Origin: Prochlorococcus sp. AG-355-P18
GTDB taxonomy: Bacteria; Cyanobacteriota; Cyanobacteriia; PCC-6307; Cyanobiaceae
Reading direction: 5' to 3'
Assembly (NCBI GenBank): GCA_003280515.1
Contig: QCER01000007.1
Coordinates: 1-64,000 of the forward strand
DNA: 64,000 bases
Part shown: piece by piece, positions 933 through 45,543 of the stretch
Layout of the letters: each line of letters opens with the position of its first letter
Numbering within the stretch: the first letter of the stretch is position 1
Program-made: the position numbers and the translations under genes
The notes under the pieces: model-generated
Database searches by the model: none
Seen by the model: the letters and a program-made list of their open reading frames with translations, nothing else
What the model was told of the DNA's origin: nothing

Positions 933-935
933 TTA

Positions 936-1988: not shown

Positions 1989-2028
1989 AATTGATAAAGA
2001 AAAATTTATAATTATTTTTTAAATAACA

Positions 2029-3429: not shown

Positions 3430-3602
3430 TTTTTAATATTTTTGCCTATTTTTGCTTATCCTATTATAAACCTTATTTGACAACTAAAATTACTTGATTA
3501 AAAACTAAAATATATTTAGAGAATTTAAATAATATAAAATAAAATTAATTTATAGACTTATAAATTTTAAGAATAAAAATAATTATCTTTAATAAAAATT
3601 TT

Positions 3603-4976
3603 TTATTTAAATTTGTTTTCTCTTGCTCTAAAAACAGTTTTTATTGTTTTAAAAAGAATAAATAAATCTAATAAAAATGAAATATGATTTATGTAATAGA
3701 TATCATAACTAAGTTTATTTATTGTATCTGTAATACTTGCTCCATAGGGATAATTAACCTGAGCCCATCCACTAATACCTGGTTTTAATACATTTCTGTA
3801 GTTATAGTATGGAATTTTTTGAAGTAATTCAATTTCAATCTCTGGTCTTTCAGGTCTTGGTCCAATAAGGCTCATCTTCCCTTCTATAACTGATAGAAGT
3901 TGTGGTAATTCATCAAGTCTTGTTGCCCTTATTATTTTTCCAACTTTTGTGATCCTTTTGTCTTTTTTTGATGCCCATTGGGCACCATATTTTTCGGCAT
4001 TTACCACCATACTTCTAAATTTAAAAATTTCAATTATTTCTCCTTTATATCCAGTTCTTTTTTGAGAATAAAAAATTGGTCCTTTATCTTCTAAGAAGAT
4101 ACAGAAAGAAATTAATATTGATATTGGTAATGTGACAAAAAATAAAATTATACTTAAAAAGAGATCCCCCACCCTTTTAACTCTAAATTTGTATGAGTTA
4201 TCCGAGAGATTAAATTTTTCAATTATTTGATATTTATTTTCAATTAAGTATGGTGGGATTCTATGTAGTTCAAGTTCACACCATTTTAAGACATTTAATA
4301 CATTTACTCCTTTTGACTTAAAATATAATATTTTGTCTAAATCATTAGAAGAAACATCATTACTATTATCTAAAATTATTCCTTCTAATGTTTCTAAATC
4401 CAATATATTAATATCAGAATTGTTATCTATTCTTTTAAAGTTTAAATTTTTACGATTAAGGTTAATTTCTTTTTTTAAGTTTTCAAAACTTTCTATTTTC
4501 CCAAAAAATATCCAATTCTTTTTATTTTTATAAAGACTATTTGTGATAATGCTTAGAAGATATTGTATAAGCCAACTAATCAAGGAAATAATTAAAGTTA
4601 TTCTAAAAAAGTATAATATTTCTTCTTTTTGAAATTCAATGAAATTCACCTCAGTATTTAAAATAAAAACAAAAACTTTGTTAAAAATATTAATAAATAA
4701 ATAAACTAAGTTACAAGCTAAGAATATTGATATGGATTTAATTAATGATTTGAAAATTTCAATTATATTTACATTTTTACAAACCATGTATCTTCCTAAA
4801 ATATAACTTGAGATTATCCAGAACGAACAAATACTAGTAGTTACTATTGGATTAGGTAAGGCCTCAAAAATTAATAAATAACCCTTTGAATATAAATATG
4901 CATTTAATATAAAATCTACTGATATAGCAAAAAGAATCCTTCTTCTAGATATAATCCATGGGATTTTTAATTTCAT
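3603..4976 (-). CDS. polyprenyl-phosphate sugar-1-phosphate transferase (WcaJ/WbaP type)
   Basis: It probably starts a polysaccharide repeat unit by moving a sugar-1-phosphate from UDP-sugar to undecaprenyl phosphate at the inner membrane. The N-terminal half has several hydrophobic segments. The C-terminal third is the catalytic transferase domain, with FKFRSMVVNAEKYG, RLDELPQLLSVIEGKMSLIG and PGISGWAQVNYPYG. The frame stays open upstream to a TTG at 5024, which would add 16 residues. I chose the ATG at 4976 because the added residues are not needed for a plausible first membrane segment. The family assignment is firm; the sugar is unknown. Confidence 0.88.
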   Translation of the reverse strand: MKLKIPWIISRRRILFAISVDFILNAYLYSKGYLLIFEALPNPIVTTSICSFWIISSYILGRYMVCKNVNIIEIFKSLIKSISIFLACNLVYLFINIFNKVFVFILNTEVNFIEFQKEEILYFFRITLIISLISWLIQYLLSIITNSLYKNKKNWIFFGKIESFENLKKEINLNRKNLNFKRIDNNSDINILDLETLEGIILDNSNDVSSNDLDKILYFKSKGVNVLNVLKWCELELHRIPPYLIENKYQIIEKFNLSDNSYKFRVKRVGDLFLSIILFFVTLPISILISFCIFLEDKGPIFYSQKRTGYKGEIIEIFKFRSMVVNAEKYGAQWASKKDKRITKVGKIIRATRLDELPQLLSVIEGKMSLIGPRPERPEIEIELLQKIPYYNYRNVLKPGISGWAQVNYPYGASITDTINKLSYDIYYINHISFLLDLFILFKTIKTVFRARENKFK

Positions 4977-5136
4977 TAATACATTTATATTAACTGCAAT
5001 TATATATCTAAATATAATTAACAAAATTGGTAAAAAAGATTTTAAAGATTATTTTTAATTATTTTTAATTAATTTCATCCTGATGCTGTGAGATAATAAC
5101 AACAACTTATAAAATCTAAAAAGTAGTTTTTAATGT

Positions 5137-5769
5137 ATGAGTAGAAATAAATTATTTAATTTCGATGTTAAAAGAGATTCTGATTTTATTGAAATAGGTG
5201 GAGGTGAAGGAGATTTATGTTCTGATTTAGTTAATCGCGGATATAATTTTATTCTTTATGTTGAACCTAATAATAAGAGGTTTCAAATAGCAAGAAAAAA
5301 ACTTTACCCTACAGATTGTCAGTGTAAAGATATTTCTAAAATTGATTTTTCCCAATTTAAACCAAGATCAGATTCGGCAACTGTAATTATGCAAGATGTA
5401 ATAGAGCATATATCAAAAAAAAAGCTCAAGGATTTTTTTATAAAGTTATCTAATTATTATTCAAAAGTTTATTTTATTGGTAGAACTCCAAATCTTAAAA
5501 GTCCATATGGATTAAGAAACTCATTTGGTGATAATACACATATTCATAGATTTACTGATTCTTCACTTAAGGATTTTTTGAAAAATTTAGGTTTTGACCA
5601 AATAAGTGTTTCGAATGAAAATTTTAGGATTACAGGAATTTTATCCTTTTTAAGATATTTTCCTTATTTAATAATTATTTATACCTTGTCGCTTAAGTTT
5701 GCAATTGTTTATGGCAATTGGGAGGGCTTACTTACCCCAAATATTGTATTTCATTCAGAGAAAATTTAA
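5137..5769 (+). CDS. class I SAM-dependent methyltransferase
   Basis: This 210-residue protein has the SAM-binding motif I FIEIGGGEGD at residues 17-26, followed by motif-II-like YVEPN and a motif-IV-like region MQDVIEHISKKK. That pattern matches Methyltransf_11/23-type enzymes. Its stop lies 13 bases before the start chosen for the ABC membrane protein, so it probably heads a co-transcribed run that continues through two transporter genes and two glycosyltransferase genes. A sugar or lipid-linked glycan is a reasonable substrate guess, but the sequence does not show it. Confidence 0.7.
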   Translation: MSRNKLFNFDVKRDSDFIEIGGGEGDLCSDLVNRGYNFILYVEPNNKRFQIARKKLYPTDCQCKDISKIDFSQFKPRSDSATVIMQDVIEHISKKKLKDFFIKLSNYYSKVYFIGRTPNLKSPYGLRNSFGDNTHIHRFTDSSLKDFLKNLGFDQISVSNENFRITGILSFLRYFPYLIIIYTLSLKFAIVYGNWEGLLTPNIVFHSEKI

Positions 5770-5782
5770 AATTTCATTATTA

Positions 5783-6739
5783 ATGTTTAAACTTTTTGTA
5801 TATCTTAAAAAAAATATTTTTTTAAACAGAATCTTTTCTATAAAAAAATCAATAATAACTTATTCTTTGGCAAGCTTTTTTGATATTTTTATAATTTTAT
5901 TCATCTCAGACATTTTTAATAAACTCACAACTGGTAGTTCATCTACTAATATTTTTTATAACGTTATGGTGTGTATGGCTTTTATAGCTTTCCGTACTAT
6001 TTTGGTATTTTTATTGAGAAAATATGCTTTTAGTAGAATTTTTTATAAAAAAATAAGAGATGAGAAGCTTTTGGTAGATAACTTTATAAAAAAAAGAATT
6101 AATAATATATTAAATATCGAAAATGATCTAAATTTATTCAAGGAGAAACTTGTAAATTCTTCTAATCTTTCAGTAGTCAATTTTGATATACCCATTGTGG
6201 TGGTTTTTTCTGAACTAATATTTGCAATAGGTGGAATTATTATTTTATTAAAAATATTTGGATTGAGATTATTATTGTTTAATCTTCCTATCTTTATTTT
6301 ACTTTTATTCTTTTCAAAATTTGTTTCAAAAAAACTTAATATATTAGGAAAAAACTTTCTTAACTATACAGAAAAAAGAATAAATTCAATTGATAATGTT
6401 TCAGAAATAGCATTGGAGCTATCTGCTTTAAATCGAACTGAGAACTTGTTAGGTTATTTTCAAAAAGTAAATGAACCTTTTAATAAAATTTTAAATGAAC
6501 AAATTATTACCTCAAATATGATGCAGATATTCACAGAATCATCATCTTTCATTATTATTTTAATATCTTTAATTTGTCTCGTTACAAATATTACTGAGAC
6601 CTCATTAGCAAATACAGCAACTTCTTTAGCAGTTTTATCAAGATTGGTTCCAAGCTTTACAAGGTCAGTAAGTTTTATAACTCAACTGCAATTTGGACTA
6701 CCATCAGTAAAAAGATTGTCTCAAATGAATAAAATTTAA
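5783..6739 (+). CDS. ABC exporter membrane subunit
   Basis: This 318-residue protein has about six hydrophobic segments and no nucleotide-binding domain. It resembles the membrane half of a type-I (MsbA/PglK-like) ABC exporter. The longest frame runs back to a TTG at 5699, overlapping the methyltransferase by 71 bases. The ATG at 5783 is the better start because it leaves no overlap. The ATPase subunit is encoded 7 bases downstream. It may move a lipid-linked sugar or polysaccharide across the membrane; this is inferred from the surrounding glycosyltransferases. Confidence 0.6.
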   Translation: MFKLFVYLKKNIFLNRIFSIKKSIITYSLASFFDIFIILFISDIFNKLTTGSSSTNIFYNVMVCMAFIAFRTILVFLLRKYAFSRIFYKKIRDEKLLVDNFIKKRINNILNIENDLNLFKEKLVNSSNLSVVNFDIPIVVVFSELIFAIGGIIILLKIFGLRLLLFNLPIFILLLFFSKFVSKKLNILGKNFLNYTEKRINSIDNVSEIALELSALNRTENLLGYFQKVNEPFNKILNEQIITSNMMQIFTESSSFIIILISLICLVTNITETSLANTATSLAVLSRLVPSFTRSVSFITQLQFGLPSVKRLSQMNKI

Positions 6740-6746
6740 ATTTATA

Positions 6747-7319
6747 ATGATTCTAAATATTTTTGGACCAAGTGGATCTGGTAAAACTACTTTAATTAAG
6801 GATCTTCTAAAATCAAATAACATAAAGTATTTTTTTGAAAAGATTACTAAAAAAGATTTTAATGGGCAATTCAATGAAAATATTTCTATTTCTCTTATGC
6901 CATTACCCTTATTTAGAGGAGATGTAAAAGAATTCTTTTATATATTTAATATAAAAGTTGATATTTTGTTAAATCTAAACTACGAGCTAAGAAATTTATC
7001 AGATTCAATCTTTGAAAAAATCGATACTCAGAAAAAGCTTGAAATTGTTTCTTCTAGAAATATAGAAACTTTCAGTGCGGGTGAAATGAGAAGATTATTT
7101 TTATTGAAGTCTTTATTAGTCAAATCGGATCTAGTTATTATAGATGAACCTTTTTCAAATTCGGATAAAAAAATCTGGAACAAAATATATTCTGCAATTA
7201 AAACTAAATCAAATGCTATTGTTTTGTCACATCAATCATTAGAAAAATTCTCAGACGAAAATGAAAAAAATTTTTACGTTAATGTAAGTCAAATCTCTGA
7301 TGAAATATTTATCAAATGA
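6747..7319 (+). CDS. ABC transporter ATP-binding protein (compact)
   Basis: All ATPase motifs are present. Walker A GPSGSGKTT is at residues 7-15, the signature FSAGEM at 108-113, Walker B LVIIDEP at 128-134 and the H-loop histidine at 161. At 190 residues it is short for a nucleotide-binding domain, with little N- or C-terminal extension. It follows the membrane protein by 7 bases and overlaps the next glycosyltransferase start by 4 bases (ATGA), so it sits in a tightly coupled operon. Substrate unknown; export of a glycan precursor is the contextual guess. Confidence 0.8.
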   Translation: MILNIFGPSGSGKTTLIKDLLKSNNIKYFFEKITKKDFNGQFNENISISLMPLPLFRGDVKEFFYIFNIKVDILLNLNYELRNLSDSIFEKIDTQKKLEIVSSRNIETFSAGEMRRLFLLKSLLVKSDLVIIDEPFSNSDKKIWNKIYSAIKTKSNAIVLSHQSLEKFSDENEKNFYVNVSQISDEIFIK

Positions 7320-8122
7320 TGAAAAATACGATTATACTTACTATTCATAATAAAGAAAAAACAATAGTAAGGATATTAAATGAGTTAATAAAAAATACCA
7401 GCAAAATAACAGAAAGGATTATTATAATTTTAGATGGATGTACTGATAATACATATGAAAAAATTAATGATTTTGTTAAAATTAAAAATTTAAGCATAAA
7501 AATCGATATTATTTTTACTAATGATATATGGGAGACAAAAGCCAATAATGTGGGTTTAAAAGAAGTGCAAACTCAATATGCAACTATTGTTCAAGATGAT
7601 ATGTTAATTAAACAAAAAAATTGGGATAAATTATTAATAGAAAAACTAGCTAATAATAATGTATTTTCTATTAGTGGTAGAGCAGCTTATAATTACAAAT
7701 TAAAAAACAATAAGCTTACTATAGAAAATATTATTGGAAGAGAATACCCTTTTTCAAATAAAAATTTTTTTGGGAAAATAATTGGAAAATTATTTGCTAT
7801 TTTTAAACCTTATTGGTTTTTTAAATATTTTTCATTATTCTCTGTAAGAGAAATTAATAATCGAGGCCCTCTTGTATTAAAAATAAATTTAGTTAGAGAA
7901 TTAGGATTTTTTGATGAGAAGTTTGCACCATTTGAATTAGATGATGTTGATTTATGTTTAAGAGCTTTTAAAAAATACGGTCTTCATTCTAGTTGCTTAC
8001 CCATTTATTATGAAGAAATTAATGGGAGTAAAAAAAATAATCTAAATTCGAGTCGTATGAGTGAAAAAAGTATTGCTAAAAATTCTGCTTTGTTAATTAG
8101 TAAACATAGAGATTTATTATGA
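7316..8122 (+). CDS. glycosyltransferase family 2 (GT-A fold)
   Basis: A 268-residue GT2-like enzyme. The N-terminus (IILTIHNKEKTIVRIL) is the usual first Rossmann strand and helix, LDGCTDNT lies at residues 39-46, and the metal-binding acidic motif QDDM is at 93-96. A later FELDDVDLCLRAF segment is the typical C-terminal acidic region of GT2 enzymes. It overlaps the ABC ATPase gene by 4 bases and the next gene by 4 bases, which indicates translational coupling. Donor and acceptor are not predictable. Confidence 0.82.
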   Translation: MMKNTIILTIHNKEKTIVRILNELIKNTSKITERIIIILDGCTDNTYEKINDFVKIKNLSIKIDIIFTNDIWETKANNVGLKEVQTQYATIVQDDMLIKQKNWDKLLIEKLANNNVFSISGRAAYNYKLKNNKLTIENIIGREYPFSNKNFFGKIIGKLFAIFKPYWFFKYFSLFSVREINNRGPLVLKINLVRELGFFDEKFAPFELDDVDLCLRAFKKYGLHSSCLPIYYEEINGSKKNNLNSSRMSEKSIAKNSALLISKHRDLL

Positions 8123-8814
8123 ATATTCATGTTGGTACATTTGCTTCTAAAAATTTTGAGAAGCAACAAAAACTGCAAGCAAATATACTATTAGATATTG
8201 GCTTTAATTCATCAAATATTCATTTATTTAATCCAACTAAACTTGATAATCATTTCTATAATTCTCATCCTTATGCCTCAGAAAATAATAAATTTGCTTG
8301 GTATAGTTTTAAACCTTATTTTTTGGGAATGTTGCTAAATAATATGAAAAAAGGTGATATTTTATTGTATTTAGATGTTAATGATAAACCAATCCTAGGA
8401 ATAAAAGAATATATAGAAAATCAATTTCTTATTAGGAAAGATTTGGATATATTGTCATGCGGTACCAATTATCCAAATTTTAAATACCTTTCTAGTTTTC
8501 ATAAATCAAATTTGTCATTAACGATTATAATTGAATCTCTTTTTTTATTTCAACCTGAATGTGGAGTAATTGCTATAAGGAACTCATTTAAATCTAAATC
8601 AATTTTAAGAATTTGGTATGAATTGACACTTATGAATTCTTATTCATTAAATACAAAAAGATATAATAGTGGTCTTTCTAGACATGATCAAGAAACAATG
8701 TTTATTATCTCTAGAATTTATAAGACAGTAAAAATAGAATCATGGTTAAGATACAAACTTTTAGGCAAAGGCTTAAGAAGATTTGTTAAGTTTGAAGCTC
8801 TAAGAAAATTTTAA
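8119..8814 (+). CDS. putative glycosyltransferase, capsular-type
   Basis: I recognise this 231-residue protein only by pattern. The segment WYSFKPYFLGMLL followed by KGDILLYLDVND (residues 79-89) resembles small bacterial glycosyltransferase-like proteins that have a W-x-KP-Y motif and a D-x-D/DAG-like metal motif. The late SRHDQETMFI matches their H-x-DQ region. It overlaps the upstream GT2 gene by 4 bases (ATGA). A role in adding a sugar to the island polysaccharide is inferred from operon position. Confidence 0.5.
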   Translation: MNIHVGTFASKNFEKQQKLQANILLDIGFNSSNIHLFNPTKLDNHFYNSHPYASENNKFAWYSFKPYFLGMLLNNMKKGDILLYLDVNDKPILGIKEYIENQFLIRKDLDILSCGTNYPNFKYLSSFHKSNLSLTIIIESLFLFQPECGVIAIRNSFKSKSILRIWYELTLMNSYSLNTKRYNSGLSRHDQETMFIISRIYKTVKIESWLRYKLLGKGLRRFVKFEALRKF

Positions 8815-8864
8815 TATGTCTCTAATTAAGGAATGCAGTACTTAAAAACTCTATAAGTTAAAAT

Positions 8865-9800
8865 TTAAATTCCTAAAAATAATTTGTCTAAAAAAGATAA
8901 CTTTTTTTCATAAAGATTACTATATAGTCTATTTCTTAATTTTGAATAAGCTTTTGTTAAAAAAACCCTCACAAAATTTCTTGTATCATAAATGCCAGAG
9001 TGTTTGTATAAGCAACCATTTAGAGATTCTTTTGAAGCTCCAAGTAAATTTACTGAATAAAATCTTATTAATGCATCACCCCATCTGAATTTATAAATTC
9101 CTTGCGAACGGATAATATGAGCTAGAAATTTTCTATGAATATTTGACCTTGCCCATTCCAGCCTAACAATTTCAAAATTTGTATAATAAATTTTTGGGTT
9201 TAAAGTCGCTTCATTACAATGATTTAGAAAATTAGAAATTAAATTTGTATTTTTTTTGCAAAACTTATAGATACATTTACCAAATCCTATAGTTACTGAT
9301 TTATCTTCATTTTGGACTGTTTTTTCAATATATCCATAATCACTGTTAAAACTTTCTAATTGATTTAAAAAATTTTTATTTGTGTAAATAAAAAATGAAT
9401 CAGTATCCATTCTTACAAAGTATTCTACATTATTCAAAACTTCATCAAAAAATACGTCATTTGCAAAAAATTTACACATATCTCTATATCCAAGACTGAA
9501 TGAATTAATACAACTGCAATTGCTTGGAAAGTCCCTTAAGTATTTGTCTGTTTTTTTTCTTTTTACATAATCCTTTAGTGAGATTTTTCTAATTAAGATT
9601 TTGATCTTTAGTTCTTTGGAGAGGTAGTCAATATATGATCTTACATTTTTACTAGGATTTCCTTCGCAGAAGATTATTATTTTATAACTGCAAATTAATT
9701 TCTTTAAAATGTTTTGATAAAGAAGTTTTAAAGAAATTCCAAAATCATTCCAAGTTTTTTTATCTTGTTTAACTAGGTAGGTAAAAGCAAACTTATACAT
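8865..9800 (-). CDS. GT15-like (KTR/Kre2-type) mannosyltransferase
   Basis: Several blocks match glycosyltransferase family 15, the alpha-1,2-mannosyltransferases best known from fungal Golgi. They are GYRDMCKFF (residues 104-112), FVRMDTDSFF (128-137, in the donor/metal-binding position), TNFEIVRLEWARS (207-219) and FRWGDALIRF (238-247). They occur in the same order as in that family. The protein has 311 residues and no signal anchor. It is transcribed opposite to the preceding operon, with AT-rich spacers on both sides. Mannosyl transfer is inferred from the family. GT15-like proteins are uncommon in bacteria, so acquisition by transfer is likely. Confidence 0.7.
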   Translation of the reverse strand: MYKFAFTYLVKQDKKTWNDFGISLKLLYQNILKKLICSYKIIIFCEGNPSKNVRSYIDYLSKELKIKILIRKISLKDYVKRKKTDKYLRDFPSNCSCINSFSLGYRDMCKFFANDVFFDEVLNNVEYFVRMDTDSFFIYTNKNFLNQLESFNSDYGYIEKTVQNEDKSVTIGFGKCIYKFCKKNTNLISNFLNHCNEATLNPKIYYTNFEIVRLEWARSNIHRKFLAHIIRSQGIYKFRWGDALIRFYSVNLLGASKESLNGCLYKHSGIYDTRNFVRVFLTKAYSKLRNRLYSNLYEKKLSFLDKLFLGI

Positions 9801-9931
9801 CTTAAGTGATTTTTAGGATATGGAATATTTATTTCTTAGTACATTTCATATTTTTAAAATTGAATTTGGTAAATCTTTGTAAGACAAGTCTTTGTTTAAC
9901 AAACTAAATAATTTAATTTTGTAACATCTAA

Positions 9932-10075
9932 TTATTTTCTAAATTTAACATCTCGGTACCAAAATTCCAAATTTATATTAACTTTATGATTTAATTCTAA
10001 AGTAATCATTTCTTTAGCTTTCTTGATATTATTGTAATTTAAATATAAGCATGCTAATAAAAATAATTGAAGCTT
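9932..10075 (-). pseudogene. C-terminal remnant of a lost gene (TPR-like)
   Basis: Inside the 345-base gap between two glycosyltransferase genes, the minus strand stays open for 47 codons and reads like real protein. It contains LLLACLYLNYNNIKKAKEM and ends in NLEFWYRDVKFRK before a TAA at 9932-9934. The helix pattern and the NLEFW-x-RDVKFR ending look like the C-terminus of a tetratricopeptide-type protein. No start codon precedes it, and a stop lies immediately upstream at 10076-10078. I call it a leftover tail of a deleted gene. The rest of the gap is AT-rich and holds nothing I recognise. Confidence 0.45.
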
Positions 10076-10145
10076 TTAAAAAAATAATTTTATTTAGTAT
10101 TTTAGTACTCTTCTGTTAAAATTTCTTTATAAATTTTTAAAGTAA

Positions 10146-10979
10146 ATGAGCATTCATGAAGTAATTATAAGAGGTGGTTTAGGTAATCAAATTTTCGGAT
10201 TATTCCATGCATATAAATTATCATTGAAATATGAAAATAAGGTTTGTTTAAATCTTTCCAATTATTACTTTGGGCAAAGGAAGGATAGAGATTTTATCTT
10301 AGATTTATTATATCCATCTTTACTTGAAGAATTTAAAATCAGCAAAAATTTACTTTCGAAAGTTTTGTATCTTTATGTAAGAATTTTTGAAAAATTTTTT
10401 GTAAATAAAAATCAAAACTTTCTTCCAGGTGATAATCCATTTTTTATAAATTATTTTAGAAATAGATATATACACTCGGGTTATTTTCAGAAAATAGATG
10501 AATCAGAATTAGATAAGAAAACTTTTACTTTAATAAAAAAAAGATTTTATCCATATATTAAAAATAAGAAATATAATTATTTAGCAATTCATATTAGGAG
10601 AGGCGATTACTTAAGTAAAAAACATTCTATGCATGGCATTATTCATGAAAAATATTTTCTTGAGGAAGCAAAAAAATTACTGTCTGAAAATTACTATGAA
10701 GGAATAAAAATTTTTTCAGATTCTCCTTCTTTGATAGAAACAAAAAATTTTAAGAAACTACATAAAAATATTATTTTTGACGAAGGTGGAGAATCATTTG
10801 AGGTTTTTAGAAGAATGGCAAACCATAAAGGTCTGATAGCTTCAAATAGTAGTTTTTCCCTGTGGGCAGGAATATTGGGAGATATTGAGAACTTTTCAAT
10901 TCCCTCTCATTGGATGAAAAATGTAAATTCCTCAATTTTAGGTTTGAAGAATTTCAAAAGATACAATTGTTTCCTTTAA
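10146..10979 (+). CDS. GT11-like alpha-1,2-fucosyltransferase
   Basis: The N-terminal GGLGNQIF (residues 10-17) and the donor-binding HIRRGDY (149-155) are hallmark motifs of glycosyltransferase family 11. They are followed by IFSDSP and ASNSSFSLWAGIL, the usual family motifs II and III. Length (277) is normal. The enzyme probably transfers fucose, or a related sugar from a GDP donor, to a polysaccharide acceptor. No GDP-fucose biosynthesis genes are in this window. It is flanked by convergent or opposite-strand genes and probably has its own promoter in the AT-rich gap upstream. Confidence 0.85.
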   Translation: MSIHEVIIRGGLGNQIFGLFHAYKLSLKYENKVCLNLSNYYFGQRKDRDFILDLLYPSLLEEFKISKNLLSKVLYLYVRIFEKFFVNKNQNFLPGDNPFFINYFRNRYIHSGYFQKIDESELDKKTFTLIKKRFYPYIKNKKYNYLAIHIRRGDYLSKKHSMHGIIHEKYFLEEAKKLLSENYYEGIKIFSDSPSLIETKNFKKLHKNIIFDEGGESFEVFRRMANHKGLIASNSSFSLWAGILGDIENFSIPSHWMKNVNSSILGLKNFKRYNCFL

Positions 10980-10989
10980 TTTAAAAAAT

Positions 10990-11811
10990 TTATGAAATTT
11001 TATCTCTAAATTTTTTGACATAAATAATCTCGGTAAGTTTTGAGGGAAGTAGAAGAAAAAAAGTTCTTAGAAATAAATGAATAAGAACTATTATTAAAGG
11101 TTTAATTTTGCATTGTAATAAAAGTAATTGCAGCCTTAATTCGGCTAGAGAATTTTTTAATCCACCTCTTCTTTTATACAAATCCTTTCCTCCGTTTGTA
11201 TGAACTAAAATCTCATCGATATTATGAAAAATAGCTCCTTTCTCTGCAAGCTTAGCCCATAAACCATAATCCTCTCTAAGATATATATTTGGATATCCCC
11301 CCACACTTTTGATTAATTTTGTCTTATAGAAAGCTGTCATATGATTTATTGGATTTCTAAACTTTAGATATTCTTTAATCTCTTTATTTGTTAAGGGCAT
11401 TTTTTTTACCAATTTTGGGAGAATTGCATATTTATCTACCTCTAAAATATTACTACCGATAACATCATAATTTTTATTTGTGAGTTGCAATTGCTTTTTA
11501 AATCTTTTTTTAAGATTAATATCATCGCTATCTGCACGTGCTATCCATTCTGTTTTAACTAATTTTAAAGCACTATTTAATGCAAGAGCTAATCCTACAT
11601 TTTTATCTAATCTATTTAATTGAATTGGGTATTTATTTGACATTGTTTGAATAACTTTCTCATTTAATTTTGGAATTGGACCATCTATAGTTAATATAAA
11701 AAAGTTTGGCTTTACTGAATTATTAAAAATACTTTCTATTGCTTTTTTTAGTAGTTTTGGATTGTCCTTGTGATAAGTACACATCAGAAGAGTAAAACTC
11801 ATTTTTTTCAT
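10990..11811 (-). CDS. glycosyltransferase family 2
   Basis: A 273-residue GT-A enzyme. The N-terminal LLMCTYHKDNPKLLKKAIES is the first nucleotide-binding segment, with ILTIDGP after it, and the metal-binding ARADSDD motif lies near residue 95. The LREDYGLWAKLAEKG block is typical of GT2 enzymes that make rhamnosyl or galactosyl links in O-antigen. A C-terminal hydrophobic stretch may attach it to the membrane. Its start overlaps the stop of the upstream GT2 gene by 4 bases, so the pair is co-transcribed. Specificity unknown. Confidence 0.85.
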   Translation of the reverse strand: MKKMSFTLLMCTYHKDNPKLLKKAIESIFNNSVKPNFFILTIDGPIPKLNEKVIQTMSNKYPIQLNRLDKNVGLALALNSALKLVKTEWIARADSDDINLKKRFKKQLQLTNKNYDVIGSNILEVDKYAILPKLVKKMPLTNKEIKEYLKFRNPINHMTAFYKTKLIKSVGGYPNIYLREDYGLWAKLAEKGAIFHNIDEILVHTNGGKDLYKRRGGLKNSLAELRLQLLLLQCKIKPLIIVLIHLFLRTFFLLLPSKLTEIIYVKKFRDKIS

Positions 11812-12605
11812 GATTTAAGAAATTTTTTAAGAATTATTTTTAATAAATTACTGCAAAATATTGCTAAAGATTTGATTAAAAAAATCAAGATTGATTTTGA
11901 GCTTCCCAGAATAAATGCAAAAAAAAGTAATATTGATTTTTTTATAATTTTATTAAATATTTTTTGGTTATATATAAAAATATTAAATAGATTAGAAGTC
12001 ATATTATTATGGTGTACCCTATAACTTACAAGTGAGATTGGTATATATTTAATTTTTATTTCTGCTAAAATTACTTTTATCCACCAGTCATAATCTTCAG
12101 AATATAAATCATTATTAAAAGGTATCGATAAAAGAATCTCTTTTCTTGCTGCAATTCCAGATCCTCCTCCCCAAATATTATTTCCATGGATTAGAGAAAG
12201 AATAGATACTGTTTTTGCTTTTTTACCTAATTTATATCTTGGTTTCTTTTTTAAAAGACCAAATTTTGAAAATTCGTGACACACAACTTGATAATTTTTT
12301 AATGATTTTAATGTCAATTCTGCTTTATTAAAAGACCATATATCATCATCATCAGAGAATAATATTATATCTGTTTTTGAATTCTTAACTCCAAGGTTTC
12401 TTTTCTCTGGTGTTGTTAAATTAGAGCAAAATATTATCTCACAATTATCCTTTTTATTTATAAGTTTTAAACCCTCTCTGCATGTATTATTTTTATCAAG
12501 AAGTATAATAATTTCTTTTGGAAGAATAGTTTGATTGTATATGCTTGAAAGTAAATCATTCAAAAAATTTATTCTTCCTACCGAGGGAATAATTACTGAG
12601 TACAT
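11808..12605 (-). CDS. glycosyltransferase family 2
   Basis: A 265-residue GT2 protein, starting YSVIIPSVGRINFLNDLLSS. LLDKNNT is in the donor-binding region and LFSDDDD is the metal-binding acidic run. YSEDYDWWIKVILAE is the acceptor-side acidic motif and a hydrophobic C-terminus follows. It overlaps the following GT2 gene by 4 bases, and the two are probably consecutive enzymes of one repeat-unit pathway. The ligase/polymerase gene on the same strand lies about 130 bases upstream. Confidence 0.85.
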   Translation of the reverse strand: MYSVIIPSVGRINFLNDLLSSIYNQTILPKEIIILLDKNNTCREGLKLINKKDNCEIIFCSNLTTPEKRNLGVKNSKTDIILFSDDDDIWSFNKAELTLKSLKNYQVVCHEFSKFGLLKKKPRYKLGKKAKTVSILSLIHGNNIWGGGSGIAARKEILLSIPFNNDLYSEDYDWWIKVILAEIKIKYIPISLVSYRVHHNNMTSNLFNIFIYNQKIFNKIIKKSILLFFAFILGSSKSILIFLIKSLAIFCSNLLKIILKKFLKS

Positions 12606-12732
12606 TTTTCAATGAAATTTACTTTTATGATATTTAAATTTTTTTGATCAATTAATTTTTGTTATATAGATTATCTAAAAAAAATTTATTATGTAGCTAT
12701 GCTAGTAAATTATTTTTGAGATAATCTTATAT

Positions 12733-14043
12733 TTATTTTGAAAAATTTATTTTCTGATTTTTAGGATCATTATTTATCAATATTATATTTCTGGTACCAG
12801 CTAATAATATCCAACCAGTTATACTTACTCGTCCATCAAAATATGGAATATCAATTAAATGTATTAAGACTAATAAATAAAAGGATATTATCCAAGCCCT
12901 ATCTATAATTGTCTCTTTAGTAATATTTTGAACTGATAAAAATATAATTTTATATGATTTGTAAATTAAGTACGATACTGGGATTAATATTAATAATGTT
13001 GTTGGGATCCCATAATTTATAAATAATTCAATGGGAAGATTATGAGAGTGACCTTTCCAAAAACCTGTCTCAGCCTGAAACAAATTAGGAAATGAATTTG
13101 ACCCATGCCCAAAAAATGGTTTATCTATAATAAAATTTAAGGATGTTTTCCATATACCAATTCTAGATATGTCTAGTGTTGCAAATTCGGCACTAGTGAA
13201 ATTTATCCATATCCCTTTAGGAATTATAGTCCTGAGAATATTTTGAAATTCAATCCCAAATATTGGAAAAGAAAGATTTAAAATTAATAAAGACAATCCA
13301 GTTAATGAAGGAAACAACCACTTCTTAATTTGAGATCCAAATAAAAAAGGTATAGTGATTAATAAACATATCCACGCGCCTCGTGAAGCAGTTAAAACTA
13401 TCAAAGATGAGATAGAAATTGCCAAAAATATTTTTGGAATAACTTTAATAATTTTCTTATTATCAAAATACAAGAAAGCCAAAGAAAAAGGCCAGATAAT
13501 GTTTAACCATGTTCCTAAATAATTCGGATTGCTAAATAAACCAGTTATACCAGTTATTCCATCAATAGGCCTTTGGTACCAAACTATTAAACCAAAAAAA
13601 GTTTTAAAAGGACCCTCCCAATTTAATAAAGCTTGACTAAAACATGAAAAAATAACTGGTATAGAACCAAGAATTAAAGCAATAATGCAGTTTCTCCTAT
13701 CTGTATTTGAATAGAGATACTTTTGAGAACCTTGAAATAAAAGTATAAGAGGAATCCAATTTAATAAATCTATGAAAATAAAAAAAGATTGTTCTGTTAA
13801 GCCAGATGTTTGAATATTTTCAAGAAAATTGATTGTGCTGCTTAAGGAAAGGAATATACATGCTATATAAAAAATGTTATTAATCTTTTCATTTTTTTTA
13901 TCAAAATTATTATTACGAAAACTAAAAAAGATTGAAACTAGTAATGCAAAAATAGCTATTGAAAAAGCTGAAGGTAATAAAAATAAACCAAAAATAAAAA
14001 AAAAGTTTCCTATTCTTAATGAACCTTTTAATTTTTTTTCCAA
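12733..14043 (-). CDS. O-antigen ligase / Wzy-like polymerase
   Basis: A 436-residue protein with roughly ten to twelve hydrophobic segments and the Wzy_C/O-antigen-ligase signature. GLFSNPNYLGTW is followed by LTASRGAW, then the large periplasmic loop ending in FGHGSNSFPNL and SHNLPIELFINYG. Such proteins either polymerise repeat units or ligate the glycan to lipid A or another acceptor in the periplasm. The two roles cannot be told apart by sequence. It is the last island gene before tRNA-Arg and is transcribed toward the glycosyltransferases. Confidence 0.8.
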   Translation of the reverse strand: MEKKLKGSLRIGNFFFIFGLFLLPSAFSIAIFALLVSIFFSFRNNNFDKKNEKINNIFYIACIFLSLSSTINFLENIQTSGLTEQSFFIFIDLLNWIPLILLFQGSQKYLYSNTDRRNCIIALILGSIPVIFSCFSQALLNWEGPFKTFFGLIVWYQRPIDGITGITGLFSNPNYLGTWLNIIWPFSLAFLYFDNKKIIKVIPKIFLAISISSLIVLTASRGAWICLLITIPFLFGSQIKKWLFPSLTGLSLLILNLSFPIFGIEFQNILRTIIPKGIWINFTSAEFATLDISRIGIWKTSLNFIIDKPFFGHGSNSFPNLFQAETGFWKGHSHNLPIELFINYGIPTTLLILIPVSYLIYKSYKIIFLSVQNITKETIIDRAWIISFYLLVLIHLIDIPYFDGRVSITGWILLAGTRNIILINNDPKNQKINFSK

Positions 14044-14082
14044 AAAGATATAAAGAGTTATGAAATTGGAATTTTATTCCAA

Positions 14083-14156
<74 letters not shown>

Positions 14157-14296
14157 ATTTCTTTATTATATCTGACGGCTAAGTCCTAAACCAAAAATAA
14201 CTTCATAAAAACTATTTATTTGCTTTTTATTTATATTTATTTAGTTTCATTTTCTGTAATAATGGATTATGAAATTAATTTTGTGGTTTTAAAAAT

Positions 14297-14977
14297 TTGG
14301 CTAAGAGACTTACAGAAAAACAAAAAGAAGAAATAATAAAAAGTTTTCAAGGTGGTAAAACTGTAGATTTTTTATCTAATAAACTTAATTTTAATAAATT
14401 AACAATAGTGAGACATTTAAAGAAAATTCTTGGCGATTCAAAATATAAGGAATTGATTTCAAAAAATAATAAGTCTATTAATAAAGTTATAAATAGAAAA
14501 AAAATCAACCTTAAAAAAAATAGTGAAGAAGATTCAGAGAAATTTAATAAAGATCAAAAAAATTTTGATAGTGTCAAAGATAAAAAAATTGAAACTGAAT
14601 TTTTTCAAGATTCATCATTTTTTGAAATTGTACCTTTAGATTGCGAGATAGATATTGCCACTCAAAAAGATCTTTCCTCTATACCTATTGCGGAGATGAA
14701 TTTCCCCAAAACTGTTTATATGATAGTTGATAGAAAAATTGAGTTAGAAACAAAATATTTAAAAGATTATCCTCAATGGCAATTTTTATCTGAAGATGAA
14801 TTAAATAGAAAAACAATAGAGATTCATAATGACATTAAAGTTGCTAAAAGCCTTTGTAATAAAGAACAAAAAGTAATTAAGGTTCCAAATACAAATATAT
14901 TTAGACTTGTTACACCTTTTTTACTATCAAAAGGTATATCTAGAATTGTTAGCACTGATAACTTAATCGCTTTGTAG
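14297..14977 (+). CDS. conserved helix-turn-helix protein of unknown role
   Basis: A 226-residue protein read from a TTG start, since no ATG is available near the N-terminus. The first 45 residues (AKRLTEKQKEEIIKSFQGG, then a second helix pair with TIVRHLKK) look like a small helix-turn-helix. A lysine-rich linker follows, and then an acidic C-terminal domain with CEIDIATQKDLSSIPIAEMN. It may bind DNA, but its targets are unknown. It is the first gene right of the tRNA-Arg and is convergent with the small membrane gene that follows. Confidence 0.55.
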   Translation: MAKRLTEKQKEEIIKSFQGGKTVDFLSNKLNFNKLTIVRHLKKILGDSKYKELISKNNKSINKVINRKKINLKKNSEEDSEKFNKDQKNFDSVKDKKIETEFFQDSSFFEIVPLDCEIDIATQKDLSSIPIAEMNFPKTVYMIVDRKIELETKYLKDYPQWQFLSEDELNRKTIEIHNDIKVAKSLCNKEQKVIKVPNTNIFRLVTPFLLSKGISRIVSTDNLIAL

Positions 14978-14982
14978 ATTAT

Positions 14983-15213
14983 TTAATCCATTCTTTCTTT
15001 ATTGCTAAGATCTGAGTTTAACAAGCTACCTGTTAATGAGCCGCTAATAAAACTTAAGCCTATTATGAAACTTATTGGCAAACTTATAGTTTCATTAATT
15101 AATAAATTAACCTTTTTTTTGATTGAACTATTTTGTATACCGATTATTAAGATTAAAAATAAAGAGAAATTAAATGTGAATACAAAAAGTAATTTTTTTA
15201 GAGTGATTAACAT
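14983..15213 (-). CDS. small LapA-like membrane protein
   Basis: This 76-residue protein has two hydrophobic segments separated by a short basic/polar stretch. The order is FSLFLILIIGIQNSS, then KKKVNLLINETISLPISF, then IIGLSFISGSLTGSLL. That layout matches LapA-domain (DUF1049) proteins, which sit in the inner membrane and are linked to lipopolysaccharide assembly in enteric bacteria. The opposite strand also carries an open frame, but it lacks this organisation. It follows rsmI on the same strand with a gap of about 24 bases. Confidence 0.5.
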   Translation of the reverse strand: MLITLKKLLFVFTFNFSLFLILIIGIQNSSIKKKVNLLINETISLPISFIIGLSFISGSLTGSLLNSDLSNKERMD

Positions 15214-15236
15214 TTGTTATTAACATTACCTAAATC

Positions 15237-16103
15237 TTAATACATATCGTAAATTATGCTCTTTTTTATATTATTCTTTCTAGCTAAATATTTTGAGGCC
15301 TTAGAAAGGGTTATACCTGAATTAATTAAATCACGAAGTTCTTTTTTTAAGGCAAACTCATCAAAGTCTAATTTTTGATTGTTTTTATTTTTACCTTTAA
15401 TTACGATTGTAATTTCCCCTAAAACTTCTTTATCCTTGAAAAAATTTATAACGTCTTTAATGTTATTACCAATATGCTCCTCAAATTTCTTTGTAAGTTC
15501 TCGTGATATTTCAATTTCTCTTTCTTCTCCAAGATATTCTTTAAGTTCATTTAATAATTTTTTAAGTCGATGGGGGGACTCAAATAAAATGGTAGTCTTT
15601 TCATTTTTATTTATTTCGAAAAGAATTTTTTCTCTTTCAGATTTCCTTTTAGGAAGAAATCCTTCAAATATGAATTTACAGGATGGCATGCCACTTGATA
15701 CTAAAGCAGTTATTACTGCTGAAGGTCCCGGGATACAAATAATTTTAATCCCATTATATTTAGCATTTTTGACAAGATCCTCACCAGGATCACAAATACT
15801 AGGCATGCCAGCATCACTTACTAATGCTACTGATTTCCCACAAATAAGATCATTTATGATTTTTGGAATTTTACTTGAAGAATTATGCTGATTAAAGCTT
15901 ATTAAGTTATTATTGAAATCAAATTTACTCATTATTTTTTTTGTTTGTCTAGTATCCTCACAAGCAATAACAGAAACTTTTTTTAGAATAATTAAAGCTC
16001 TTAAAGAAATATCACTTAAATTTCCTATAGGAGTCCCAACAATATATAAAACACCATTTTCAGGTTCTATGTTTTCATGAGATGATAGTTCTTTTATAGT
16101 CAT
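15237..16103 (-). CDS. rsmI: 16S rRNA (cytidine1402-2'-O)-methyltransferase
   Basis: The protein has 288 residues. The N-terminal GTPIGNLSDISLRAL (from residue 23) is the diagnostic RsmI/TP_methylase start. ACEDTRQTKK, SDAGMPSICDPG and ESPHRLKKLL are further family blocks. It methylates the ribose of C1402 in the 30S decoding centre using SAM. It is divergent from the cysQ-like gene with only 3 bases between start codons, so the promoters of the pair must lie within each other's coding regions or be internal to operons. Confidence 0.95.
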   Translation of the reverse strand: MTIKELSSHENIEPENGVLYIVGTPIGNLSDISLRALIILKKVSVIACEDTRQTKKIMSKFDFNNNLISFNQHNSSSKIPKIINDLICGKSVALVSDAGMPSICDPGEDLVKNAKYNGIKIICIPGPSAVITALVSSGMPSCKFIFEGFLPKRKSEREKILFEINKNEKTTILFESPHRLKKLLNELKEYLGEEREIEISRELTKKFEEHIGNNIKDVINFFKDKEVLGEITIVIKGKNKNNQKLDFDEFALKKELRDLINSGITLSKASKYLARKNNIKKSIIYDMY

Positions 16104-43686: not shown

Positions 43687-43771
43687 GGAGAGGTGGCTGA
43701 GTGGTCGAAAGCGAACGACTCGAAATCGTTTAATAGGAAACTATTCGTGGGTTCGAATCCCACCCTCTCCG
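43687..43771 (+). tRNA. tRNA-Ser (CGA)
   Basis: An 85-base type II tRNA. The acceptor stem is GGAGAGG/CCTCTCC and the D arm TGGCTGAGTGG. The anticodon stem AACGA/TCGTT closes loop CTCGAAA with anticodon CGA, a long variable arm follows, and GGGTTCGAATCCC forms the T arm. The 3' CCA is not encoded. Its 3' end is repeated in degenerate form about 1.77 kb downstream, which marks it as a probable integration target. Confidence 0.96.
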
Positions 43772-43772
43772 T
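43749..43772 (+). repeat. tRNA-Ser 3' end: candidate attachment site copy 1 (attL)
   Basis: This 24-base segment covers the T arm and acceptor end of tRNA-Ser plus one base. It matches 45520-45543 at 19 of 24 positions by direct comparison, including an exact 12-base run CACCCTCTCCGT. It is the natural recombination half of a tRNA-targeted element. Confidence 0.6.
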
Positions 43773-43920
43773 AAAAAATTTATTTTGATACTACATTTAT
43801 GCTGTAATCAATCCTCTAAATAGACTGCAATTACAGGATAGTTGAGAAAAATACTTATGCTCAGATAACTTTTTGATTTTGAAATATAAGGTATTTCTAG
43901 GGAAAATATGGGTAACAAAT

Positions 43921-44081
43921 AAGTGGTACATGTTTTATTTCCATGGGGTATGAAAAGCACCCATGGGGTACATAAAAATACCAGTGCGATTTCAGCAATT
44001 TAGGAGATAGTTCAAGTGACACCTTCTTATGATGGGGGACAAGAAATTTTGATGTGGTACAGAATATTTTGATGGGGTTTA
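43921..44081 (+). repeat. about 20-bp-spaced repeats, consensus ATGGGGTACA
   Basis: Related ten-base motifs begin at 43921 (AAGTGGTACA), 43943 (ATGGGGTATG), 43963 (ATGGGGTACA), 44032 (ATGGGGGACA), 44052 (ATGTGGTACA) and 44072 (ATGGGGTTTA). Within each trio the spacing is 20-22 bases, about two helical turns, as for iterons or integrase arm sites. They lie between the tRNA and the lyase gene, with the tRNA-like repeat at 44009 between the two trios. Confidence 0.55.
44009..44027 (+). repeat. second tRNA-Ser-end-like direct repeat
   Basis: The 19 bases AGTTCAAGTGACACCTTCT match 45521-45539 at 16 of 19 positions and resemble the tRNA-Ser T-arm/acceptor end at about 13 of 18. With the downstream copy it brackets the lyase gene closely. 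It suggests either stacked insertions at one site or a chance resemblance. Confidence 0.45.
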
Positions 44082-44208
44082 TTGGTTGACAGTTGATCTA
44101 AAATTTAGAATATACATCTATTTTATATGGTTTATTTAGGTGATATTTAGAGAACGCGAGAATGATATCGACTTTCAGTTACATCAAATTTCAAGATTTT
44201 TTTCGGAC

Positions 44209-45120
44209 ATGAAAAAACTTGTATACCTTTTTCTCATCTTGATATGTTTTACCACTGGTAATTCATACTCAAAGGGTCGATCTCCTTGGAATTTCTTTGA
44301 GGACTTTGAAAATGAAAAAGTAGGAAGATTGAGAACCAACAAATTTACGACCAACAATAAGGGTACAGGTCGAAAACCATTTGAAATTAAGGTAGATCCT
44401 GATGGTAATCAGTATCTCTCAGTAACTGTGAAAGATGGATGGAATGTTGATCAAAAAGGAAGAACAAAAGAATTCACTGAAAGAGCAGAATTTCAACCGT
44501 TTCCTAAAAAGGCATTAGGTAAAGAAATATGGATCAGTTTCAAAAAAAGACTTCCAGAGGATTTTACTCATATCGACGATAGAGTTCTATTTTTTCAATT
44601 CAAAAACACAATGCATTATGATGGACCGAATGGTCCTTTGATAGGATTACGTTATTACGAAAATGGAGAAAGATTGAAAATAGGAGGAGATACTGGAGGA
44701 AATGACAGGAAAATGAGTCGGCAGAAAGAAGACAAGTATCGTATTGAATCAAAGTATAAGAACTATGCAGACAAATATTGGTTTCAGAAGTGGGAAAAGT
44801 TCAGAAGTCAATATAAAGACAGAGATGTTGATGGTACAGCAAAAGTGACTCCATTAGGGGAATGGAGTACATATAAGATTGGAATCTATAATACAAGAGA
44901 TAACGATGGTTTTGTAAGAGTCTATAAGGATGGGGAATTGATGTTTGATTATAATGGTGTCACTTATGATTGGCGTGGACAGTATTATCGAAGTCATATC
45001 AGAATCGGTATCTATCGAGATCGAGTATTTGGAGTGAGTTACCCCGACCAAACAATTCACTTTGATGATTTCATTGTTGTTTCAGATGAAAAGACTTTAG
45101 ATCAGATACTCGCCAGATAG
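44209..45120 (+). CDS. secreted polysaccharide-lyase-like protein (heparin-lyase-I fold)
   Basis: A 303-residue protein from the ATG at 44209; the frame extends upstream to a GTG at 44140 but the signal peptide begins here (KKLVYLFLILICFTTGNSYS). The mature part resembles the Polysacc_lyase (heparin lyase I-like) jelly-roll family. It has FEDFENEKVGRL at the start, TERAEFQPFP, a central IGLRYYENGERLKIGGDTGG, then GEWSTYKIGIYNTRDNDG and YRSHIRIGIYRDR. Such proteins cut or bind acidic glycans outside the cell. It is the only substantial gene in the tRNA-Ser element, and its richer GC points to transfer. Catalytic activity is not proven. Confidence 0.65.
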   Translation: MKKLVYLFLILICFTTGNSYSKGRSPWNFFEDFENEKVGRLRTNKFTTNNKGTGRKPFEIKVDPDGNQYLSVTVKDGWNVDQKGRTKEFTERAEFQPFPKKALGKEIWISFKKRLPEDFTHIDDRVLFFQFKNTMHYDGPNGPLIGLRYYENGERLKIGGDTGGNDRKMSRQKEDKYRIESKYKNYADKYWFQKWEKFRSQYKDRDVDGTAKVTPLGEWSTYKIGIYNTRDNDGFVRVYKDGELMFDYNGVTYDWRGQYYRSHIRIGIYRDRVFGVSYPDQTIHFDDFIVVSDEKTLDQILAR

Positions 45121-45206
45121 TCTGCGATCTTTTGATGAGCAGGTTCAAGTGGGTGTTTCTCTGTCGTGTTGATAAAGTGTTTTATTGCAGTTCTAATCTG
45201 GTTTTC
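45102..45206 (-). pseudogene. possible C-terminal tail of a hydrolase
   Basis: On the minus strand an open run of 34 codons ends at 45102-45104 and reads EKHPLEPAHQKIADYLASI at its end. This resembles the HP-x-x-x-AH-x-x-IA tail of SGNH/GDSL hydrolases. There is no start codon, a stop precedes it, and it overlaps the lyase 3' end tail to tail. Neither upstream frame continues it clearly. Bases 45207-45519 contain no gene I can support. Confidence 0.25.
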
Positions 45207-45385
45207 TCAGATAGAAATGTTTATATTTTTTGATTGATTTCTTATCTTTACTGTCGGAAAGTAATAGATTATTCTTTTTATAAAGAACTTGAAAATAGTC
45301 CGACTTAGATACCAATATTGTAGCATACAAACTCAGTTATATCAAACGAACTGACGGAATTTAGAGTATTATTTTAGCGTTCCCC

Positions 45386-45416
45386 AAAACCTAAAAAAGT
45401 GTTATTTTAGGGGGCA
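45386..45416. other. hairpin with direct TATTTTAG repeat
   Basis: CCTAAAA (45390-45396) can pair with TTTTAGG (45405-45411), loop of 8 bases, flanked by CCCC on the left and GGGG on the right. The word TTATTTTAG also occurs just before it. It could be a terminator-like or recombination-associated structure inside the element; no nearby gene explains it. Confidence 0.35.
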
Positions 45417-45519
45417 GACAAAATAATATTTTCCGATTTGGTGTAGTATAAAATGGAGTCTTTTTCAGCAGTTTGATCTTTTATTTCTAAGATTACTGAT
45501 GAATACTATGGGCAATTCT

Positions 45520-45543
45520 GAGTTCAGATGACACCCTCTCCGT
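45520..45543 (+). repeat. degenerate tRNA-Ser 3' end: candidate attachment site copy 2 (attR)
   Basis: This segment ends in the exact 12 bases CACCCTCTCCGT found at the tRNA-Ser 3' end. It keeps G-GTTC--AT from the T arm, giving 19 of 24 matches with 43749-43772. It has no surrounding tRNA structure, so it is a fragment copy as left by site-specific integration. Confidence 0.55.

Follow-up and report, generated by a model that had tools for sequence, protein, structure and literature searches.

Cassettes inserted at transfer RNA (tRNA) genes and recognizable by a tell-tale direct repeat are known in the streamlined marine Actinomarinales (PMC7771536), and additive islands with tRNA direct repeats occur in Methylopumilus (PMC10872708). 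The tycheposons of Prochlorococcus measure 4-200 kb and have a tyrosine recombinase of their own, XerD (PMC10872708). The present study deals with a stretch of 64,000 nucleotides from Prochlorococcus sp. AG-355-P18 (contig QCER01000007.1, positions 1 to 64,000), called the window in the following, in which a gene for a polysaccharide-lyase-like protein lies closely behind a tRNA-Ser gene (Table 1). In our view this gene is probably all that a small cassette, integrated site-specifically, carries as cargo, and its product an exported jelly-roll protein resembling polysaccharide lyases. Neither the tRNA-Ser gene with its repeated 3' end nor the context of mobile cargo was noted in the initial annotation of this DNA.

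The cassette, its attachment sites and the apparent exchange of its gene with SAR11

When GTDB contigs were scanned with six peptide words, 20 loci were found, 14 from Prochlorococcus and six from Pelagibacteraceae (SAR11). In 10 of the 14 Prochlorococcus loci a tRNA-Ser gene lies upstream of the gene, with the anticodon cga in L001, L006, L009 and L005 (in the last with another element in between) and gct in L002, L004, L008, L011, L012 and L013. No upstream tRNA gene was found within the locus DNA examined of L003, L007, L010 and L020, and in L111, from genome G015, the gene stands beside a tRNA-Asn gene. The tRNA's own 3' end is repeated at most 1.5 kb behind the gene in all 11 tRNA-adjacent loci tested (the window, L001, L002, L004, L006, L008, L009, L011, L012, L013 and L111), which involves three tRNAs; over the tRNA's final 14 bases this match has 2-3 mismatches, and it was equalled by 0-1 of 100 first-order Markov randomisations at each locus. 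The repeat core also flanks the gene on both sides in L005 and L007. The Prochlorococcus cassettes that were measured span 1.4-1.8 kb, and that of the window contains no open reading frame (ORF) of 60 or more amino acids outside the gene, within which one antisense ORF of 68 amino acids is found. As shown by the comparison of these loci, a cassette that is bordered on one side by the 3' end of an RNA gene and on the other by a short repeat of this end bears the sequence trace of attachment-site integration. Integration next to a tRNA gene with such repeats, one of the marks of tycheposons, is found here as well.

Empty sites were matched by the right flanks of 9 of the 13 loci tested, namely five of seven with tRNA-Ser(cga) and four of six with tRNA-Ser(gct). 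The seven cga flanks were compared with the sequence that follows the tRNA gene in 28 relatives: those of L001, L003 and L006 align from the first base with L082 and L057, that of L005 with L072, and the window from position 45,543 aligns, likewise from the first base, with the sequence behind tRNA-Ser in G010 (L076; 80% over about 700 bp). According to a survey of 200 Prochlorococcus genomes, the relatives holding these four empty sites possess no member of the family. Up to 12 loci, one of them in the window's own genome, match the gct flanks of L002, L008, L011 and L013, and the alignments start at base 1-6 in the nearest loci and at about base 30 at most in more distant ones. A candidate empty site at tRNA-Asn was rejected, since in the near-identical G008 another insert, roughly 1 kb long, occupies this place and is followed by the same flank.

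The ORF list reveals no recombinase inside the cassette, so that a recombinase presumably acts in trans. The window's genome encodes three tyrosine recombinases, all of them off the window's contig, and an integrase-like ORF of 415 amino acids lies upstream of the gene in L007 (PHROG 1, E 2.5e-36; Pfam 1.6e-5, below the cut-off). The coding part itself is also exchanged. L009, at tRNA-Ser(cga), and L012, at tRNA-Ser(gct), share 944 bp at 99.4% identity, from 17 bp before the start codon to just before the stop codon, and align nowhere else in the two cassettes; the similarity of the window to L002 is likewise limited to the ORF (912 bp at 95%). Comparison thus shows swaps of the ORF, as judged by these alignments, between cassette backbones with different attachment sites. 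The left arm of the window's cassette (43,772-44,208) contains repeated CCATGGGGTA and GTGGTACA words, which are possibly arm sites of a recombinase. A phage origin was rejected, with no match in 50,697 phage records and none in IMG/VR with either the single protein or the alignment as query. IMG/VR was also scanned with the 3' end of tRNA-Ser, and among the 120 matches listed none codes for a family member at E 1e-4; 72,556 plasmid records contained no relative.

In three of eight SAR11 loci (L014, L018 and L019) the gene lies between direct repeats of 13-16 bp that are also found in the 3' part of the predicted transfer-messenger RNA (tmRNA) gene, and these cassettes measure 1.21-1.28 kb. 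The SAR11 and Prochlorococcus copies are close to each other: for the two sequence groups of the family (A, to which the window's gene belongs, and the paralogous B), L018 (SAR11) and L112 (Prochlorococcus) of group B share 90.8% DNA identity over 950 bp with a synonymous divergence (dS) of 0.28, and L014 (SAR11) and the Prochlorococcus form L035 of group A differ by a dS of 0.44. A tree of 27 rows has well-supported branches that force at least two changes of the phylum label. Given these near-copies in unrelated SAR11, Prochlorococcus and SAR11 appear to trade the gene, an exchange shown by comparison of the sequences. We judged contamination to be an unlikely cause of the cross-phylum match, by eye, because the SAR11 contigs look alphaproteobacterial and the Prochlorococcus contigs carry photosystem and other cyanobacterial-looking genes; on the 536-kb SAR11 contig of L015, cytochrome oxidase genes surround the copy, and in L014 and L018 the tmRNA gene adjoins it. 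In L019, nine copies of the tmRNA-gene repeat (0-2 mismatches) are spread over the 15.5 kb that lead up to the tmRNA (383-15,931), and the units they separate hold one ORF or several. Some of these unit ORFs have similar signal-peptide starts (MKKLL..), and the array resembles a lasting reservoir of small cassettes with partly exported products.

Protein family, fold and candidate active site

The window protein belongs to the Pfam family PF14099 (Polysacc_lyase; E 2.2e-14, 54.3 bits at a gathering cut-off of 29.9), which all 22 family members scanned match, and no family was assigned to it by NCBIfam. Since 21 aligned relatives share 48-94% identity with it and the ratio of nonsynonymous to synonymous substitutions (dN/dS) is 0.17-0.50 across the 20 gene pairs computed, as expected under purifying selection, the gene is under selection and not a chance ORF. 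By eye, about 21 N-terminal residues resemble a Sec signal, with KK, a hydrophobic stretch (mean Kyte-Doolittle hydropathy 2.9 over residues 4-15), an end at NSYS before KG and no lipobox. The signal peptide and the jelly-roll lyase pattern of the initial annotation were therefore borne out, the former as a putative feature by hydropathy and inspection, the latter by the Pfam score and its recurrence throughout the family. The unusual base composition that had been claimed did not hold: the GC content of the gene (0.351, window 0.308) lies inside the span of the window's 1-kb bins (0.218-0.408), and its high GC skew of 0.294 is matched at 28-30 kb of the window (0.284, 0.306).

AlphaFold was run on the window protein with 16 family sequences, and the best model is a jelly roll of modest confidence (mean predicted local distance difference test, pLDDT, 59; predicted template modelling score, pTM, 0.64). 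The top match in Foldseek was the glucuronan lyase 2zzj of polysaccharide lyase family 20 (PL20; E 1.8e-9), followed by the PL36 enzyme Aly36B and PL7 enzymes. VIA-align also ranked 2zzj first (Z 18.2 over 220 residues, root-mean-square deviation 3.5 A), with glycoside hydrolases of family 131 (GH131) at Z 15.9, heparin lyase I at Z 14.7-15.6 and Aly36B (6kcw) at Z 15.3-15.4. Independently of the fold search, 2zzj was the sole significant match among solved structures (E 1.4e-9; the next one E 0.12) of profile A3, made of 12 sequences including distant SAR11 proteins; a single-sequence search and the closer profile A1 gave no meaningful match, 2zzj included. The earlier proposal of a secreted polysaccharide-lyase-like protein is supported by Pfam, the profile match to PL20 and the fold search, and the comparison with PL13 and PL20 lyases that was to check it led to an enzyme, the PL20 lyase, as the best match.

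Counted from the printed profile alignment, Gln130, Arg265 and Tyr269 of the window protein pair with Gln91, Arg196 and Tyr200 of 2zzj. We take Gln91 and Tyr200 to be functional residues of 2zzj, and their equivalents Q130 and Y269 are present. The printed alignment starts at residue 54 of 2zzj, and Arg92 of the window protein falls one column before it; residue 53 of 2zzj is presumably the catalytic histidine. R92, K132, N133, R265, G267 and Y269 are invariant in all 22 aligned sequences, and so are His121 and His284. At the position of the QxH motif of other lyases, group A has QFK and group B has EFK, with Gln130 replaced by Glu. A check of the active-site residues, also suggested initially, thus turned out in two ways: three residues match PL20 and there is no His at the QxH position. 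PL20 2zzj itself is devoid of His on this strand, with Ile where the window protein has Lys132. Among the distant SAR11 relatives, QxH is found in four of six aligned (QMH, QFH twice, QCH) and QIY or QLY in two. The motifs of PL7 alginate lyases, RxExR, QxH and YxKAGxYxQ (PMC8618178), are not present in the window protein, which has R92-A-E-F-Q, Q130-F-K and I264-R-I-G-I-Y-R-D instead. From these alignments we infer that R92, Q130, K132, R265 and Y269 may be the catalytic residues, and lyase activity of the protein is plausible.

The assumption that Prochlorococcus rarely carries such enzymes was not confirmed: 35 of the 200 genomes (11 of the 66 of high quality) possess a homologue. Group A is present in 18 genomes, group B (about 54% identity) in 27 and both in 11, including the window's genome with its B copy at C17:20659-21684; G113 has family fragments only. 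The group-B copy at G118:C20:16120-17146 is broken by in-frame stops, and since broken copies exist, the gene is also lost. Within the SAR11 family, 24 of 297 genomes match the profile, four closely and 20 weakly, and all seven weak matches scanned are PF14099 proteins above the cut-off. The distant SAR11 PF14099 proteins (L085-L100), with QxH, QIY or QLY motifs and signal-like starts, are surprising for organisms that are not known to feed on polymers. Across cyanobacteria, PF14099 is matched in 9 of 292 genomes (five above the cut-off), which include two Prochlorococcus genomes among the nine, G000 and G015.

Table 1 Features of the cassette and its gene in the window
Feature	Positions	Strand	Basis
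tRNA-Ser (anticodon cga), integration target	43687..43771	+	ARAGORN
Left repeat CACCCTCTCCG, last 11 bases of tRNA-Ser	43761-43771	+	Repeat search
Single-gene cassette, 1,771 bp, directly after tRNA-Ser	43772..45542	+	Flanking repeats, ORF list, empty-site alignment
ORF, secreted polysaccharide-lyase-like protein, 303 amino acids (PF14099)	44209..45120	+	ORF list (ATG at 44209, stop 45118-45120), Pfam, fold and profile search
Putative Sec signal peptide, residues 1-21	44209..44271	+	Hydropathy and inspection
Arg92 codon, R-x-E strand	44482..44484	+	Invariant in 22/22 aligned
Gln130-Phe131-Lys132, place of the QxH motif in other lyases	44596..44604	+	Alignments; Gln pairs with Gln91 of 2zzj
Arg265-Ile-Gly-Ile-Tyr269	45001..45015	+	Aligns with Arg196..Tyr200 of 2zzj
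Right repeat CACCCTCTCCG, exact copy of the tRNA-Ser 3' end	45532..45542	+	Repeat search; 0/100 randomised sequences equal

Possible functions and the phosphorus-gene surroundings

According to the reading that we favour, a tRNA or tmRNA gene serves the cassette as attachment site: integration at its 3' end would leave a short copy of this end behind, and the tyrosine recombinase at work would presumably come from the host or from a larger element. The ORF passes from one cassette to another with a different attachment site, and likewise crosses between Prochlorococcus and SAR11, as the sequence comparison shows. The protein would be exported by Sec, and the groove on its concave sheet might bind a polysaccharide that is anionic and contains uronate. 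Cleavage might proceed by beta-elimination, with Tyr269 as acid/base and with Gln130, Lys132, Arg92 and Arg265 neutralising the carboxylate, in an active site of the PL20/PL13/PL36 type that would have Lys and Arg where other lyases have His.

Several observations speak against this picture. On the side of the cassette, L010 has neither a tRNA gene nor the repeat core in the locus DNA examined, and no empty site was matched by L007 and L009 (cga, in 28 relatives) or by L004 and L012 (gct). L015, L016, L133 and L134 of SAR11 have the right-hand repeat only, and L017 has two ORFs between its repeats. G001, the nearest relative of the window (98% at the flank), is devoid of the cassette and of the next 770 bp or so, and that stretch therefore has a separate history. 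On the side of the protein, the AlphaFold model is weak (the remaining four models have a pLDDT of 36-46) and the predicted structure of a SAR11 relative is poor (pLDDT 39, pTM 0.35), so that the geometry of the groove is not firmly modelled. The lists of Foldseek and VIA-align also contain GH131 glucanases, calreticulin and legume lectins, as well as Cip1, which is structurally related to glucuronan lyase and reportedly showed no convincing lyase activity (PMC3764139). Finally, His is absent from the QxH position in all 22 aligned members, and catalysis is therefore not assured; group B has also exchanged Gln130 for Glu. Two further histidines, His121 and His284, are nevertheless invariant.

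The lectins and calreticulin among the fold matches, the example of Cip1 and the QFK and EFK motifs would all suit a protein that is secreted and binds glycans but no longer catalyses, its groove holding acidic polysaccharide for adhesion, shielding or decoy. We regard this as a possible, though not the expected, explanation. It is opposed by the agreement of Q130, R265 and Y269 with PL20, which has Ile and not His on the QxH strand, and by the invariance of K132, R92, R265 and Y269 in 22 sequences. Moreover, Lys is proposed to serve as both catalytic base and acid in the PL36 enzyme Aly36B (PMC8286568).

Another role is suggested by the neighbours of the copies outside tRNA genes. As markers we used the phosphonate-binding transporter protein PF12974 (phnD of L010), the solute-binding protein of L110 and the phosphatase PhoX, with the source loci counted. 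Of the 27 genomes with group B, 17 loci were fetched, and 13 of these have an ortholog (at least 97% identity) of either transporter marker: phnD in four and the L110 protein in ten, including L110 itself as the marker source. L119 and L132 have only distant homologues of the transporter markers, and L120 and L121 none. For group A off tRNA genes, PhoX lies 1.7-6.5 kb from L113 (its marker source), L127 and L129, and phnD 1.7-1.8 kb from L130 and L010 (its marker source); L128 has no such neighbour. When strict orthologs (E < 1e-100) are counted across the 200 genomes, in sets read by hand, phnD is present in 21 of 27 genomes with group B and 11 of 173 without it, either transporter in 22 of 27 and 14 of 173, respectively, and either transporter in 11 of 18 genomes with group A and 25 of 182 without it; the corresponding Fisher p-values ignore relatedness, sampling site and completeness. 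In 12 of the 17 group-B loci, an Amidohydro_2 protein with a signal-like start (L110, 13,872-14,831) is found nearby and is a possible partner.

The position of the non-tRNA copies near phosphonate and phosphatase genes hints at phosphorus scavenging. Polysaccharides of high-molecular-weight dissolved organic matter bear phosphate and alkylphosphonate esters (PMC5649143), and the enzyme might depolymerise such dissolved material into pieces usable by phosphatases or phosphonate transporters. However, phosphorus-marker neighbours are missing around the window copy, around the remaining tRNA cassettes and in those SAR11 loci that were examined, apart from a 28%-identical ABC ATPase in L111, although diverged SAR11 genes could be missed since the markers are Prochlorococcus proteins. 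Furthermore, the islands are shared hot spots, and shared ancestry or sampling site could produce the association. One of the two transporter markers, which adjoins HD, FAD-oxidoreductase and HAD genes in L110, is by Pfam only a general solute-binding protein. We consider this role rather unlikely. A more far-reaching version would be that Prochlorococcus and SAR11 share one-gene cassettes without recombinase, with swappable coding parts on tRNA and tmRNA backbones, and that the present one spreads a lyase with a Lys/Arg site that opens phosphate- or phosphonate-bearing dissolved polysaccharide, by which even a photoautotroph would tap the open ocean's polymer-bound phosphorus; taken as a whole, this is a speculation with little claim to probability.

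It is quite unlikely that the enzyme trims the envelope glycan of its own cell and so remodels the surface or changes a phage receptor. The gene is accessory and patchy, as such a function might demand, tRNA-targeted islands serve envelope decoration in marine Actinomarinales (PMC7771536), and the element between tRNA and cassette in L005 encodes a protein with PADLOC matches. However, the window protein matches nothing in the defence library, its cassette has no second gene, and the gene is common to SAR11 and Prochlorococcus, whose envelope glycans need not be alike. For the roles put forward initially (own surface, attack on competitors, anti-phage trait) we obtained no positive evidence, as PADLOC, PHROGs, phage records and IMG/VR gave no match, and a defence role of the window protein was set aside for want of a PADLOC match. 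The L005 element (4,358-7,404, from tRNA-Ser to the lyase cassette) consists of a GIY-YIG protein and an MrcB_N/NOV_C protein with PADLOC matches to PDC-S36, PD-T4-1 and TmtA, and is possibly a defence element in the same attachment-site array. That the protein is a true heparin lyase I (PL13) is highly improbable, and this family was set aside, since the "heparin-lyase-I-like" of the initial annotation holds only for the broad fold given above, no sequence match was found and PL20 fits better, by fold Z and as the sole significant profile match.

Comparison with known systems

If our reading is correct, it reveals a clear and datable route by which genes flow, on DNA units hardly larger than one gene, between two bacterial groups that are among the most abundant in the sunlit ocean. 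It would also place a secreted, polymer-attacking type of protein in cells regarded as living on light and small molecules. It would make testable who mobilises cassettes without recombinase, how the attachment site is switched among tRNA-Ser, tRNA-Asn and tmRNA, and whether picocyanobacteria have access to polymer-bound phosphorus. What is new here is a one-gene, retargeted, cross-phylum cassette with a lyase-like product and an altered active-site motif, and cassettes with tRNA repeats as such were already known. A search of PubMed Central found no title on the family in Prochlorococcus or SAR11, a weak negative with the main tycheposon paper outside the search.

As to the protein, the PL20 glucuronan lyase of Trichoderma reesei (2zzj) shares the jelly-roll fold, the Gln strand and the Arg-x-Gly-x-Tyr strand. 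It differs by an identity of only 14-16%, by Ile in place of Lys132 and presumably, one column before the printed alignment, by a catalytic His53 at the place of Arg92. The PL13 heparin lyase I of Bacteroides (3imn/3ina) is alike in fold, but sequence similarity is not detectable, Z is lower and the window protein is shorter. The fold of the PL36 alginate lyase Aly36B is similar as well, and its Lys143, proposed as catalytic base and acid, is a possible counterpart of the invariant Lys132.

As to the cassette, the additive islands of Actinomarinales and Methylopumilus likewise have tRNA direct repeats, and transfer between genera is noted for them (PMC7771536, PMC10872708). In contrast, the cassettes described here carry one gene each, a single family extends over four RNA targets and two phyla, and the ORF is swapped. 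The islands of Dehalococcoides that are specific for ssrA resemble the SAR11 locus L019 in the arrays of tmRNA-gene repeats between insertions, but they are larger, possess integrase genes and carry different cargo (PMC2764846). With tycheposons, the present cassettes have in common the tRNA-adjacent cargo in Prochlorococcus and, beside the L007 copy, an integrase-like ORF. However, they measure 1.2-1.8 kb instead of 4-200 kb, with one gene in 1,771 bp in the window, and possess no internal recombinase. Since they are smaller and have no recombinase, they are regarded as a variant of the known tRNA-repeat cassettes.
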